Positions 7,803 through 13,203 of a stretch of 15,946 nt of DNA are shown here, one piece after another (the first letter of the stretch is position 1; each line of letters opens with the position of its first letter). This DNA comes from Elusimicrobiota bacterium (GTDB taxonomy: Bacteria > CAYTYR01 > UBA6262 > DAOVJB01): NCBI GenBank assembly GCA_030673425.1, contig DAOVJB010000009.1:1-15946 (forward strand), read 5' to 3'. The notes under the pieces are model-generated. The model was not told the DNA's origin. It searched no databases and worked only from the letters and a program-made list of their open reading frames with translations. The position numbers were made by a program, and so were the translations under genes.

Positions 7803-8898
7803 TGAGTTGCTTCGTATAATGGTGGAAAAGAAAGCTTCAGATTTGCATCTGCGTGCAGGCAGCCGGCCTATCCTGCGGATAAATGATGAACTTATACCTT
7901 TGGAGGAAGTTGAACCGTTGACCTCATCTGAGGTTAAAAAACTGGCCTATAGCATTATGACTGATGAACAGAAAAAGATATATGAAAAGGAACATGAGCT
8001 TGATATTGGTTACAGTGTTAGTAATGTAGGCAGGTTCAGGCTCAATATTTTTCAGCAGCGCGGAACAGTTGATATAGCCTTGAGAATGATACCTTTTACC
8101 ATTCCTAAATTTGAGGATTTGAATTTACCACCTGTTTTATCTAAATTATCTGAGCAACCACGCGGGCTGGTGATTGTTACCGGAACTACCGGCAGTGGTA
8201 AAAGCACTACTTTAGCGGCGATGATAAATTATATAAATACCAATCAAAAAAGTCACATTATTACTGTAGAAGATCCTATTGAATTCTTGCACAGGGATAA
8301 GATGAGTATAGTGAGCCAGAGGGAATTAGGTGCAGATACAAAATCATTTGCCACAGCACTTAAGTATATAATGAGGCAGGATCCGGATGTAATCTTAATC
8401 GGAGAAATGAGGGATTTAGAAACAATGTCTGCGGCTTTAACAGCAGCACAGTTAGGACATCTGGTATTGAGTACCTTGCATACGATTGACGCAAGCTCAA
8501 CAGTGACCAGAATTATTGATTTATTTCCGCCTCACCAGCAGAACCAGGTTCGCCTGCAGTTGTCGGATACCTTAAAAGGGGTAATATCCCAGAGACTTTT
8601 ACCATTGGCTGATGGTGAAGGACTTATTCCGGCAGTAGAAGTTATGGTTGTTACTCCTTATATAAAGAAATTAATTGCGGAAAATAAACTTTCGGAAATA
8701 AACAAAGCTATCCAGCAGGGGGAATATTATGGAATGCAGACATTTAATCAATCTTTAGTGACTCTTTATAAAGAAGGTAAGGTCACCTTAGAGGATGCCA
8801 AAGAAAATGCTACGAGTCCTGAAGAATTCATGATGAATGTTAAGGGAATCTACGCTGGAGAGGATAATTCAGTAAACTTCCAAAGCAATGGACAATGA
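7792..8898 (+). CDS. pilT: Type IV pilus retraction ATPase PilT
   Basis: PilT is the hexameric cytoplasmic ATPase that depolymerises type IV pili. The 368-residue protein starts with the family-typical short N-terminal domain (ASDLHLRAGSRPILRIN, 15-31). Walker A is GTTGSGKSTT (131-140), the Asp box lies around ITVEDPIEFLH (157-167), Walker B is VILIGEMRDLETM (200-212) and the His box lies around HLVLSTLHT (223-231). The C-terminal retraction region reads INKAIQQGEYYGMQTFNQSL (303-322), resembling the AIREGK-type motif of PilT rather than PilB. A purine-rich AGGGGGCAAG precedes the ATG. Its start is inside ftsZ and its stop overlaps the next gene, so it is physically joined to the division operon and not to the pilMNOP operon 4.5 kb downstream. 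Confidence 0.96.
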   Translation: MELNELLRIMVEKKASDLHLRAGSRPILRINDELIPLEEVEPLTSSEVKKLAYSIMTDEQKKIYEKEHELDIGYSVSNVGRFRLNIFQQRGTVDIALRMIPFTIPKFEDLNLPPVLSKLSEQPRGLVIVTGTTGSGKSTTLAAMINYINTNQKSHIITVEDPIEFLHRDKMSIVSQRELGADTKSFATALKYIMRQDPDVILIGEMRDLETMSAALTAAQLGHLVLSTLHTIDASSTVTRIIDLFPPHQQNQVRLQLSDTLKGVISQRLLPLADGEGLIPAVEVMVVTPYIKKLIAENKLSEINKAIQQGEYYGMQTFNQSLVTLYKEGKVTLEDAKENATSPEEFMMNVKGIYAGEDNSVNFQSNGQ

Positions 8899-9895
8899 AA
8901 TGAAGGTGTTGATTACAGGAGCTAATGGTTTCATCGGGAGCTATCTTGCAGAAGCTCTGATAGATGAGGGCTATGATGTTAAGTGTTTAGTAAGAAAAAC
9001 GAGTAATCTCCAATGGCTCCTGCCTTATCAAAATACGAATAAAAGAAATAAAATTAGCTTTATCTATGGAGATATTACAGATAAAGCTTCTCTTTATAAC
9101 GCGGTAAAAGATATAGATTATGTGTATCACTTGGCCGGGTTAATTAAAACACATCATCCCGAAGATTATTACGAAGTTAATTACTTGGGGACTAAGAATT
9201 TAATTGAAACTGTAAAAGAAGTTTCTCCTAAGCTAAAAAAGTTTATTTTTTTAAGTAGCTTAGCTGCTAGTGGACCGAGTGCAGATGGACATCTGCTGCG
9301 GGAAAGTGACGAATGTCATCCTATCACTGATTATGGAAAAAGCAAGCTTAGAGCAGAAGAACTCCTGAAGAATAAATTTATGAGGGATATTCCCATAGTA
9401 ATAATCCGTCCACCTGTTATTTACGGTCCCAGGGATAGAGGATTTTATTTTTATTTTAAGGTGGTTAAAAAAAGATTTATTCCTGTATTGAGAAACAAAT
9501 TAAGTTTCTGTTTTGTTTCAGATTTAGTTAATGGTATTATTTTAACTAGTGAAAGTGAAAAAGCCTGTGGGCAGATTTATTTTATTAGTAGCGATAAAAC
9601 ATATTCTTCAGAACAAATAGGTAAGCTTATATCTGATAATTTGGGAATAAGGGCGGTTAAAATAAAAATTCCCAAATGGTTGATTTTAACAGCAGGTTTA
9701 GTAAGTGAGTCAGTTGCAGGCTTTATCAGGAAAACTAGTATATTTAACAGGCAAAAAGCCCGTGAGTTAATTCAATCATACTGGATTTGTGATGTGTCTA
9801 AAGCTAAAAGAGAATTAGGTTTTAATCCAGGAGTCGGTATAGAAGAAGGGATTAGGACAACGGTTGATTGGTATATTAAACATGGATGGCTCTAA
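8888..9895 (+). CDS. Extended SDR, NAD-dependent epimerase/dehydratase family (possible ceramide reductase, CerR-like)
   Basis: A 335-residue extended short-chain dehydrogenase/reductase. The Rossmann motif TGANGFIG is at 10-17, HLAG at 81-84, the catalytic Ser region LSSLAASGP at 122-130 and Y149-x-x-x-K153 in DYGKSK. RPPVIYGPRDRG (174-185) is the usual substrate-loop entry. A hydrophobic stretch near 262-282 (KWLILTAGLVSESVAGF) could contact the membrane, fitting a lipid substrate. Many of these are sugar-nucleotide enzymes, but the next genes are SPT-like and bCerS-like, and in Caulobacter the ceramide reductase CerR is of this family and is encoded near Spt. That function is inferred from context. 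The start overlaps pilT by 11 bases; an internal ATG at 8900, one base past the pilT stop, is an equally plausible start (331 residues). Confidence 0.88.
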   Translation: MDNEMKVLITGANGFIGSYLAEALIDEGYDVKCLVRKTSNLQWLLPYQNTNKRNKISFIYGDITDKASLYNAVKDIDYVYHLAGLIKTHHPEDYYEVNYLGTKNLIETVKEVSPKLKKFIFLSSLAASGPSADGHLLRESDECHPITDYGKSKLRAEELLKNKFMRDIPIVIIRPPVIYGPRDRGFYFYFKVVKKRFIPVLRNKLSFCFVSDLVNGIILTSESEKACGQIYFISSDKTYSSEQIGKLISDNLGIRAVKIKIPKWLILTAGLVSESVAGFIRKTSIFNRQKARELIQSYWICDVSKAKRELGFNPGVGIEEGIRTTVDWYIKHGWL

Positions 9896-9906
9896 AGGGG
9901 GGATAA

Positions 9907-11202
9907 ATGGATTTATTCGATAAATGTGTGAAATTTAAGACCGCAAAGGAGGTAATGGCTGCCGGGCTTTATCCATATTTTAATATAATTACCTCGGCTC
10001 AGGATCCTGAAGTAATTGTGAGTGGTAAAAAAATGATTATGATTGGTTCAAATGACTATCTGGGCTTAACCACTCATCCTAAATTAAAAAGAGCAGCGTT
10101 TAGAGCGCTTAAGAGGTATGGAACAGGGTGTACCGGTTCACGATTTCTTAACGGCACATTTGATATTCATGAAGAGCTGGAGAGCGAATTAGCTGATTTT
10201 GCTGATAAAGAAGCAGCTTTATTCTTTACGACAGGTGTGCTTGCCAATTTAGGGACTATTGCTGGATTGGTAGGGAAGAATGATATAGTAATCACGGATA
10301 AAGCAGACCACGCAAGTATTATTGATGGCTGTCATTTATCTTTTGGCGAGACGAAAAGATTCAGGCACAACAATATGGAAGATTTAGAGAGAGTTTTGGC
10401 GTCTTGCGATAAATCGAAAGGGAAATTGGTAGCGGTTGACGGGGTCTTTAGTACAGAGGGGGAAATTGTAGACCTTCCCCGTGTAGTTGAATTATGTAAA
10501 AGATATAGTTCTAGAATTATGGTAGATGACGCTCATGCTGTTGGTGTTTTGGGTAAAGGGGGAAGAGGTACAGCCGAACATTTTGGTCTTCAGGATGACG
10601 TAGACGTAATTATGGGTACTTGCAGTAAGTCATTAGCTTCTGTTGGAGGGTTTATTACTGCTACCAAAGACGTGGTTCATTACCTTAGGCATAATTCCAG
10701 GGCATTGATTTTCAGTGCCAGTCCTCCGCCGGCTTCGGTGGCTGTAGTATCAGCTGCTTTGGATATAATAAAGAATGAGCCGAACCGACGTAAACGTCTC
10801 TGGGAAAATACAAGAAAAATGAAAGAAGGATTTCAGGAATTAGGCTATGATACCGGTGACAGCCAGACTCCGATTATTCCTGTTATTATTGGTGATAATT
10901 TCAAGACTTTTCAAATGAGGAAGATGTTATTTGAAAAAGGTGTTTTTACTAATCCTTTTGTTAGTCCGGCGGTACCGGAAGGCAGGGCATTGCTGAGGAC
11001 AAGTTATATGGCTACCCATACTGCCCAACAGTTGGATAGAGTATTGGAAATATTTGAAACAGTAGGCAAACAGCTGGGAATAATTCCTGGAGGGAGAACA
11101 AGAAGAACGCCTAAAAAATTACCTTTAAGAAGGCGTATAACCAACCAGATGAAAGACGGGGTTAAGACATGGATGCAAAGGATATACAGATTCAGGCGGT
11201 AG
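9907..11202 (+). CDS. spt: PLP-dependent alpha-oxoamine synthase, serine palmitoyltransferase-like
   Basis: This enzyme family condenses an amino acid with an acyl thioester; serine palmitoyltransferase joins serine and a fatty acyl group to give 3-ketosphinganine, the first step of sphingolipid synthesis. In the 431-residue protein, the PLP lysine is K241 in GTCSKSLASVGGF. The stacking His is H135 in DHASIIDGCHLS, and D207 and H210 in MVDDAHAVGVLG hold the cofactor. YGTGCTGSRFLNGTFDIHEELE (71-92) and RFRHNNMEDLE (151-161) resemble bacterial SPT more than KBL or 8-amino-7-oxononanoate synthase, and no other biotin gene is nearby. An unusual basic extension occupies about residues 395-431. RBS AGGGGGG precedes the ATG closely. 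The gene overlaps the following acyltransferase by 34 bases. Family certain; substrate probable. Confidence 0.85.
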   Translation: MDLFDKCVKFKTAKEVMAAGLYPYFNIITSAQDPEVIVSGKKMIMIGSNDYLGLTTHPKLKRAAFRALKRYGTGCTGSRFLNGTFDIHEELESELADFADKEAALFFTTGVLANLGTIAGLVGKNDIVITDKADHASIIDGCHLSFGETKRFRHNNMEDLERVLASCDKSKGKLVAVDGVFSTEGEIVDLPRVVELCKRYSSRIMVDDAHAVGVLGKGGRGTAEHFGLQDDVDVIMGTCSKSLASVGGFITATKDVVHYLRHNSRALIFSASPPPASVAVVSAALDIIKNEPNRRKRLWENTRKMKEGFQELGYDTGDSQTPIIPVIIGDNFKTFQMRKMLFEKGVFTNPFVSPAVPEGRALLRTSYMATHTAQQLDRVLEIFETVGKQLGIIPGGRTRRTPKKLPLRRRITNQMKDGVKTWMQRIYRFRR

Positions 11203-12293
11203 AAACAAAGAAGGATTTGATTGATTTTATAAAGTTTCCTCAAATAGTATATAAAGATAATCCTTACTGGGTAGCTCCTTTAGTGGCAGAAAGGAAAGCG
11301 TTACTCAGTGATAAGAACCCATTCTGGCAGCATAGCGAAAAGATTTTATTCTTAGCTAAGAAAGGCAACAACATTATCGGGCGAATTGAAGCTGCTGTTG
11401 ACCATAATTATATTAAATTTCAAAGAGAAGAATGTGGTTTCTTCGGTTTTTTTGAGTGTCTGCCTGATTATGAGGTTGCCCAAAGGTTATTGGATACAGT
11501 AAGAGGTTGGTTGAAGGCAAAGGGTATGAAAATAATGCGCGGGCCTTTTAATCCCTCAACTAACGACGAATGCGGTTTGCTCTTGGAAGGTTTTGATTCT
11601 TCTCCATTTATAATGATGATGTATACACATAAGTACTATTTGGAGTTTATGCAAAGGTATGGTTTGACAAAAGCCAAGGACCTTTTTGCATATATTATGT
11701 CGGTTGCCGGAGAAGCTTCCGGGAAATTAGTACGAGTAGCAGAGATAGTCCGTAAGAAATTTCCTGAGGTAGTAATAAGGTCTATAGATTTAAGTAATTA
11801 TTATAAAGAGGTTGAAAAAGTTAAAGTAGTCTATAATGCAAGCTGGACTAAAAACTGGGGATTTGTTCCATGGACCAGTGATGAATTTGATGCTCTGGCT
11901 AAACAACTCAAACCCCTTGTGGTTCCCGAACTAGTTTTCTTTGCCCAAATAGATGGTAAACCGATAGGATTTTTGCTTGCTCTGCCTGATTATAACCAGG
12001 TATTAAAAAAATTAAACGGGCGAATGGGTCCTATAGAAATAGTGAAATTTCTGTTGTATAGAAAAAAGATTACTAATATTCGCTTGCTGGCAATGGGAGT
12101 TTTTCCCGAATATCGTAAAAGAGGAATTGACGCACTTCTTTACTTAGAGGGATTGAAAGCTGCTCAAAAGAAAGGCTATAAGCAGTCTGAACTATCCTGG
12201 ATATTGGAGGATAATGTTCTTATACAAAGAGCGTCAGAGATGATGGGCGGGAGAGTTTACAAGAAATATAGAATATACGAAATGAAGATTTAA
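11169..12293 (+). CDS. GNAT-like N-acyltransferase, candidate bacterial ceramide synthase (bCerS-like)
   Basis: A 374-residue soluble protein. The N-terminal part has NPYWVAPL (31-38) and a central block RGPFNPSTNDECGLLLEGF (124-142), followed by PFIMMMYTHKYY (146-157). The C-terminal part has a GNAT-like acyl-CoA-binding stretch, MGVFPEYRKRGIDALLY (309-325), and ends in SWILEDN (343-349) before a terminal strand. From memory this architecture is shared by proteins variously annotated as GNAT acetyltransferase, hypothetical, or (in Alphaproteobacteria) dATP pyrophosphohydrolase, including the Caulobacter ceramide synthase bCerS. If so, it N-acylates 3-ketosphinganine or sphinganine. The 34-base overlap with the SPT-like gene strongly implies co-translation. 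GGGG at 11158-11161 is the likely ribosome site. No transmembrane segment. The fold is likely; the ceramide role is inferred from neighbours. Confidence 0.82.
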   Translation: MDAKDIQIQAVETKKDLIDFIKFPQIVYKDNPYWVAPLVAERKALLSDKNPFWQHSEKILFLAKKGNNIIGRIEAAVDHNYIKFQREECGFFGFFECLPDYEVAQRLLDTVRGWLKAKGMKIMRGPFNPSTNDECGLLLEGFDSSPFIMMMYTHKYYLEFMQRYGLTKAKDLFAYIMSVAGEASGKLVRVAEIVRKKFPEVVIRSIDLSNYYKEVEKVKVVYNASWTKNWGFVPWTSDEFDALAKQLKPLVVPELVFFAQIDGKPIGFLLALPDYNQVLKKLNGRMGPIEIVKFLLYRKKITNIRLLAMGVFPEYRKRGIDALLYLEGLKAAQKKGYKQSELSWILEDNVLIQRASEMMGGRVYKKYRIYEMKI

Positions 12294-12297
12294 GGTA

Positions 12298-13203
12298 TTA
12301 CGGAAGTAGCATATTGATTGCCTCTGGGCATATCTCAAACTCAGATGGACTTTCCTGAAAAGCCTCACCGTCAATTTGTACCCACAATTTATTACTTGAT
12401 TCTATCTTTATATTTTTGGCTTTCAAATATTCTACATCATTGAAGCTTAAATGGCATCGACTCAGGATTCCCCAAATGTAGCGTAATATATCCCTTCTTC
12501 TTTTTCCCTTAAATAAGCATACATGTAATAATCCGTCGTCTAAATTTGCATAAGGGGTTACATTAAATCTACCGCCGTATGATTTTATATTTCCAATCAC
12601 AGCAAAATAACCGGTGTGTTTGACGGTCTCTGTATCACACAAAATAGAGAATTTATAAGGGTTGTATTTTATTAAGATAAATATTCCTGTTAGAATATGA
12701 GCAAGTTTTCCTCCCACGATTCTTTTAAGTTGTGGTTTAACAGACTTTACTACCTGGGCGTCAAATCCGATTCCAGCCATGGATATAAAATACCGGGTGA
12801 AGGGTTCTTTTATTTTTACTAAGTCTGCTTTTTTAATTTTATATTTGAGAATGTCATGACATGCTTTAATAGGGTTCAAAGGAATACCTGCTTCCAGAGC
12901 AAAGACATTACTCACTCCTAATGGGATAAAGCCCAAGGAAGGATTCGGTTTATTGGTGAGTGTTGATTTGGCTTTCATTATACCGTTTATGGCAGCATTA
13001 AGGGTCCCATCTCCTCCGGCAGCAATGATTAGATTAAAATCTTCTTTAATAGAATTTAGCACTAAGTCTATAGTTTCCCCTATGGTACCTGTAGAGGAAA
13101 TACTTAAGTGATTTTCCGCACACAGAGTTTTTTCGATTTCAGGTAAATATTTATTTACCTTTTTCCTGCCAGCTGTAAAATTGACTATTAGTTTAATCCG
13201 CAT
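12298..13203 (-). CDS. Diacylglycerol/sphingosine kinase family lipid kinase (possible ceramide kinase)
   Basis: A 301-residue member of the DAGK-catalytic family, which transfers the ATP gamma-phosphate to a lipid hydroxyl. The nucleotide loop is AAGGDGTLNAAING (61-74). The second nucleotide segment reads PLGVSNVFALEAGIPL (94-109), where most relatives have G-T-x-N; V97 replaces the Thr/Ser. SMAGIGFDAQVV (141-152), GGRFNVTPYANLDDGLLHV (210-228) and VQIDGE (275-280) complete the core. Length is typical of YegS/DgkB-type soluble kinases. GGAGGA lies just before the start (13207-13212 on the + strand). It faces the SPT-like and acyltransferase genes with four bases between stops. Substrate could be diacylglycerol, a sphingoid base or ceramide; context favours a sphingolipid, without proof. 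Confidence 0.88.
   Translation of the reverse strand: MRIKLIVNFTAGRKKVNKYLPEIEKTLCAENHLSISSTGTIGETIDLVLNSIKEDFNLIIAAGGDGTLNAAINGIMKAKSTLTNKPNPSLGFIPLGVSNVFALEAGIPLNPIKACHDILKYKIKKADLVKIKEPFTRYFISMAGIGFDAQVVKSVKPQLKRIVGGKLAHILTGIFILIKYNPYKFSILCDTETVKHTGYFAVIGNIKSYGGRFNVTPYANLDDGLLHVCLFKGKRRRDILRYIWGILSRCHLSFNDVEYLKAKNIKIESSNKLWVQIDGEAFQESPSEFEICPEAINMLLP

Follow-up and report, generated by a model that had tools for sequence, protein, structure and literature searches.

Three adjacent genes in this Elusimicrobiota genome, encoding an extended SDR, a serine palmitoyltransferase (SPT) and a GNAT-family acyltransferase, appear to specify a bacterial ceramide (dihydroceramide) pathway, and a convergent YegS-family kinase gene probably encodes an enzyme that adds a phosphate to the ceramide produced or to a related lipid. 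Judged from the sequence, this reading has a probability of about three in four. The window, meaning the whole stretch of 15,946 nucleotides analysed here, corresponds to contig C137 in a draft genome of 1.32 Mb that is 88% complete and 4.7% contaminated. The preliminary description had proposed a minimal sphingolipid set of four genes; all four ORFs are intact, and phylogenetic analyses support the proposal, placing the PLP enzyme with SPTs and the SDR apart from sugar epimerases. From their translations, the genes before the cluster are presumably recA (partial), a metallo-hydrolase, murC, murB, ddl, ftsQ, ftsA, ftsZ and pilT, and those past the kinase we take to be pilM-pilN-pilO.

The cluster is tightly packed. 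The ATG of the GNAT gene (11169) falls within the SPT coding sequence, whose stop lies at 11200-11202, so the 34-base overlap is genuine; the convergent GNAT and kinase genes have stop codons 4 bases apart. A promoter scan returned chance-level matches only, and no terminator was found. The SDR gene would overlap pilT by 11 bases only if it starts at 8888. An alternative ATG at 8900, one base past the pilT stop, fits the homologue starts better and is likely the true start, in which case the pilT/SDR overlap may not exist. The coupling to cell division (ftsZ-pilT) hinted at earlier is rejected, as relatives carry these genes at other sites and the closest SPT relatives encode SPT beside cdaA, the gene for c-di-AMP synthase (L032:5523-9239, L033:8001-11620, L034 and L057). 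In L032 and L033, glmM follows cdaA, and a gene for an MGDG-synthase-like glycosyltransferase directly precedes the SDR gene.

The PLP enzyme (9907-11202, + strand; Pfam Aminotran_1_2, 8.7e-56) carries a recognizable PLP motif and is, by family placement, a bacterial SPT of the Bacteroidetes/Sphingobacterium-type subgroup, predicted to condense serine with an acyl thioester. Its best NCBIfam model is the SPT model NF047600 (549.8 bits), ahead of TIGR01825 (423), KBL (406.5) and BioF (391.8); the score does not reach the curated cut-off of 640 set for this model, which was built for Bacteroidota (CFB) sequences, and is still the best by more than 120 bits. Among solved structures, Sphingobacterium multivorum SPT scores best (3A2B; 436 bits, 8e-130). 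In a careful maximum-likelihood tree of 49 sequences, from which 11 long-branch or divergent rows were excluded, the enzyme lies inside the SPT clade (support 100/98) and within a subclade that contains the S. multivorum enzyme (96/91); a quick tree of all 60 rows also recovers this SPT clade (98). For S. multivorum SPT, the residues binding PLP and L-serine were taken from PMC10196870, and every one checked is conserved (N49, S78, H135, S182, D207, H210, T238, S240, K241 and R364), which bears out the earlier description of an SPT-like enzyme with its catalytic residues. A basic C-terminal tail of about 38 amino acids (ending WMQRIYRFRR; window 11086-11199), with similar tails in L032, L033, L037 and L038, is possibly a membrane-binding helix. 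Outside such clusters, a Priestia megaterium plasmid (L063:8001-9215) encodes an SPT-clade enzyme with 52% identity to that of the window; bCerS and CerR genes are not nearby, and genes for a methyltransferase and an acyltransferase adjoin it.

The GNAT protein (11169-12293, + strand; Pfam Acetyltransf_1, 3e-9) is a tandem-GNAT N-acyltransferase of the YghO/bCerS family and a probable ceramide synthase, judged by homology, SPT linkage and fold. It is 36.6% identical to YghO over 99% of the query (35.9% over 368 residues in the alignment). Homology over 98–99% of its length extends to YghO, to GNATs encoded beside alpha-oxoamine synthase (AOS) and SDR genes in Streptomyces and Rubrobacter, and to a Sphingomonas homologue encoded 6 kb from SPT. 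The yghO gene of E. coli BL21 is the counterpart of Caulobacter CC_1154, which is needed for dihydroceramide formation (PMC9386255), and the bCerS-type assignment made in the preliminary description therefore gains a full-length link to the Caulobacter ceramide synthase. An AlphaFold model shows a tandem-GNAT fold (pLDDT 82, pTM 0.83), and several tandem GNATs are among its best Foldseek matches (from 1.6e-13). Residues 130-152 are among the most conserved stretches of the alignment and are predicted with low confidence in the model; they may form a substrate or membrane loop.

GNAT relatives also occur in other arrangements. In G055 (L199:9494-11878, - strand), a 794-aa protein joins a bCerS-type GNAT in frame to a beta-ketoacyl synthase (Pfam ketoacyl-synt at 386-750; TACASG, Cys545), and the same fusion, cut by the contig end, occurs in G057 (L201:1-1489, - strand). 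This suggests that the N-acyl chain may come over from fatty-acid synthesis. Locus L106:7595-8779 (- strand) of G025 encodes an alpha-oxoamine synthase that falls outside the SPT clade, and the gene for a bCerS-type GNAT lies 67 bases away; bCerS may therefore also work with condensing enzymes other than SPT. In Anaeromyxobacter (L049, L053), what looks like an SPT-GNAT fusion is rejected, judging from coordinates, as a high-GC artefact, because the long ORF runs in the GNAT frame only.

The SDR (8888-9895, + strand; Pfam Epimerase, 1e-35, and GDP_Man_Dehyd) is an extended SDR with an intact NAD loop (TGANGFIG), Ser and YxxxK motif (YGKSK). It is probably, though not provably, a CerR-like ceramide reductase and is the least certain core member. 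Its nearest tree neighbours are the SPT-adjacent SDRs of L032, L033, L035 and L066, and GalE, UXS, RfaD and two epimerases from its own genome fall outside a branch with support 100/99. The placement with sugar-nucleotide epimerases that would have counted against the earlier CerR-like assignment is not seen. The SPT-linked SDRs form no single clean clade in this tree, where CerR is represented by proxies: HpnA-like and haloarchaeal SDRs branch among them, and the placement is weaker for it. E. coli, Sphingomonas and Roseomonas proteins served as proxies for the Caulobacter proteins throughout. Caulobacter CerR is periplasmic; no signal peptide is obvious by eye at the N terminus of the window SDR. 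Bacteroides SDR L170 (335 aa) was not accepted as representing the B. thetaiotaomicron reductase BT_0972, since the latter is about 31 kDa (PMC9278070) and the two are not the same protein; L170 serves in the tree simply as an SDR from Bacteroides. A second SDR (32–36% identical to that of the window) and an Rce1-like membrane protein are encoded beside bCerS in some relatives (L197:5998-8738, L198:7570-8580, L199:8506-9501), and a search of the window's genome found no homologue of the membrane protein.

The neighbourhood is conserved well beyond close kin. SPT genes accompanied by GNAT and/or SDR genes, in varying order, occur in Endomicrobia, Nitrospirota, Chitinophaga, Anaeromyxobacter, Bdellovibrio and several more genomes, the relatives searched including just four further genomes from the window's class. 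With neighbour labels assigned by hand, bCerS or CerR is near 8 of 13 SPT-clade loci and 1 of 20 other AOS loci in genomes not picked by their neighbours (Fisher p 7e-4). Across all loci, a set that includes those found via GNAT or SDR, the counts are 25/35 and 1/20 (p 1e-6), leaving 10 of the 35 SPT-clade loci with neither gene near. A GNAT, linked or unlinked, is present in all 18 genomes reached via a window-like SPT. The conservation that the preliminary description suggested looking for is found for the SDR-SPT-GNAT trio across many phyla and for the kinase in some relatives only.

Such conservation bears on whether the PLP enzyme might instead be a KBL or BioF, working with a threonine dehydrogenase or sugar epimerase and outside any sphingolipid pathway. 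The fold is common to all alpha-oxoamine synthases, and the best NCBIfam models for the SDR are HpnA and LegB, both far below cut-off. Forced grouping of the PLP enzyme with KBL or BioF is nevertheless rejected (p-AU 3e-46 and 9e-60, respectively), and KBL carries Val, Gly and Asn at the positions where SPT and the window enzyme have Ser78, Ser240 and Ala271. The enzyme is the sole alpha-oxoamine synthase found in the draft genome, and no BioB scored above its cut-off there. Together with the conserved trio, these results make KBL/TDH threonine degradation or BioF-dependent biotin synthesis very improbable, and both are rejected. A pathway leading to a related lipid, whether from alanine or glycine to a 1-deoxysphingolipid or from cysteate to a sulfonolipid, is less remote and still improbable. 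SPT tolerates alanine and glycine (PMC10196870), 1-deoxysphingolipids are reported from the Black Sea (PMC11334938), and the active site of the sulfonolipid enzyme SulA is nearly equal to that of SPT, with Lys281 in place of an SPT alanine (PMC9304779). The window enzyme has Ala271 at this position, on which sulfonolipid synthesis is rejected, and solved cysteate enzymes score 244 and 232 bits with it, against 436 for S. multivorum SPT. Alanine as a substrate is compatible with the present evidence.

The kinase (12298-13203, - strand) belongs to the YegS/BmrU family, with DAGK_cat and YegS_C domains, a GGDGT motif and a TIGR00147 score of 153 bits (cut-off 118.65), and is a candidate ceramide or long-chain-base kinase. 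The preliminary description compared it with CpgB, the Caulobacter ceramide kinase. By sequence it is no CpgB orthologue: its best local match to a Roseomonas CpgB-like proxy has an E value of 0.018, against 1e-20 to YegS. Ceramide phosphate stays plausible through genomic linkage, with relatives of the kinase encoded near the GNAT or within a whole cluster. In G040, G041 and G056, which hold the close SPT relatives L032, L033 and L031, respectively, no more than 2.5 kb separates the gene for a kinase with 44% identity to that of the window from the gene for a GNAT with 55–56% identity to the window GNAT. The order in these genomes is kinase, Rce1-like membrane protein, second SDR and then, on the opposite strand, GNAT, with the membrane protein and second SDR duplicated in G040. 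Because the three genomes are close kin, this linkage amounts to roughly one observation. The distant genome G005 has an SPT-GNAT-SDR-kinase run on one strand, with a kinase 36% identical to that of the window. In the kinase tree, the window kinase and its three relatives group at 96/93, and the G005 kinase joins at 88/86. A HEPN/nucleotidyltransferase pair, likely a toxin-antitoxin module, sits inside the G005 cluster (L067:5866-6574, - strand).

The same core enzymes could also end in plain dihydroceramide, with the kinase an ordinary diacylglycerol (DAG) or phospholipid-turnover kinase that happens to be encoded next door. The kinase scores as YegS/DgkB, is encoded on the opposite strand and is the sole DAGK-family member found in the draft genome (a second match proved to be phosphofructokinase), so it may serve general DAG metabolism; most SPT clusters also have no kinase within reach. 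The recurrence of the 44% identical kinase near GNAT and of the 36% identical one in the G005 run argues against chance adjacency. CpgB itself accepts DAG in vitro too (PMC10331486). We regard this account as a serious possibility at somewhat under even odds. A role for the kinase in sphingolipid phosphorylation is plausible but unproven. It is tentatively conceivable, at a little less than an even chance, that the window kinase together with its GNAT-linked relatives and the G005 kinase represents a second bacterial lineage of ceramide or long-chain-base kinases, in a subfamily other than CpgB, that gives anionic ceramide phosphate to an uncultivated, LpxC-bearing lineage. The genome carries LpxC, so LPS is likely made, and ceramide phosphate would then be an addition rather than a replacement.

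In the proposed ceramide pathway, SPT would condense L-serine with a long acyl thioester to give 3-ketodihydrosphingosine with loss of CO2, the GNAT (bCerS) would N-acylate this intermediate, and the SDR (CerR) would reduce the 3-keto group, either before or after N-acylation. The YegS-family kinase would then probably phosphorylate ceramide or a related lipid. The analyses show the family of the SPT, the relationship of the GNAT to YghO, the joint conservation of the trio and the closeness of related kinase genes to the GNAT or cluster in relatives; from these we infer the substrates, the reaction order, the assignment of the SDR, and what the kinase uses and makes. The most likely product would be dihydroceramide, perhaps its phosphate.

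Acyl supply had been raised as a difficulty, since the window contains neither an ACP nor an acyl-CoA synthetase. That absence stands, and as an objection it falls away. A Caulobacter-type SPT requires a dedicated ACP and acyl-ACP synthetase. This pair is a feature of Rhodobacteria, with Bacteroidetes and delta-proteobacterial SPTs forming another subgroup (PMC9386255), and its absence is expected here because the window SPT branches together with S. multivorum SPT. The only ACP domain and the only clear AMP-ligase domain that turned up in the draft genome are fused in one 919-aa AMP-ligase/ACP/PlsC protein on a different contig; no free-standing ACP was found in the draft, a negative that could stem from the draft or from the search itself.

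Like the window, Caulobacter crescentus encodes an SPT, a GNAT-type acyltransferase, an SDR-type reductase and a DAGK-family kinase (Spt, bCerS, CerR and CpgB) near each other. The window differs in having no adjacent ACP or acyl-ACP synthetase, an SPT from the other subgroup, a kinase that is not CpgB-like and no Lpt-like or Cpg head-group genes. Its SPT shares a subgroup and all checked active-site residues with S. multivorum SPT, from which it differs by the additional C-terminal residues. The E. coli yghO-FAAL-SDR-ACP-SPT cluster (L061) likewise unites a YghO-type GNAT, an SDR and an SPT but belongs to the proteobacterial subgroup with an ACP and a fatty acyl-AMP ligase, unlike the window. 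The Bacteroidota trio is reported to be often dispersed (PMC11334938); in the window the SPT and partner genes lie together, as in Chitinophaga. The same source reports Spt-like genes from 38 phyla in Black Sea metagenomes; as here, uncultivated phyla there carry homologues of Spt, bCerS and CerR, frequently side by side, and the sections consulted describe no kinase. A literature search for papers naming Omnitrophota or Elusimicrobiota together with SPT, limited to that wording, found none.

The three-gene set is already known from many phyla and is not a new kind of system, and the window cluster alone leaves the understanding of bacterial sphingolipid synthesis unchanged. It is in line with a wide distribution of the Spt/bCerS/CerR set that does not depend on the proteobacterial ACP pair. 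For a bacterial lineage with few sampled genomes, it contributes a well-supported ceramide pathway next to a lipid-kinase gene. The new element is possibly a pathway-linked lineage of kinases distinct from CpgB, for which the window kinase provides a concrete candidate ceramide kinase.
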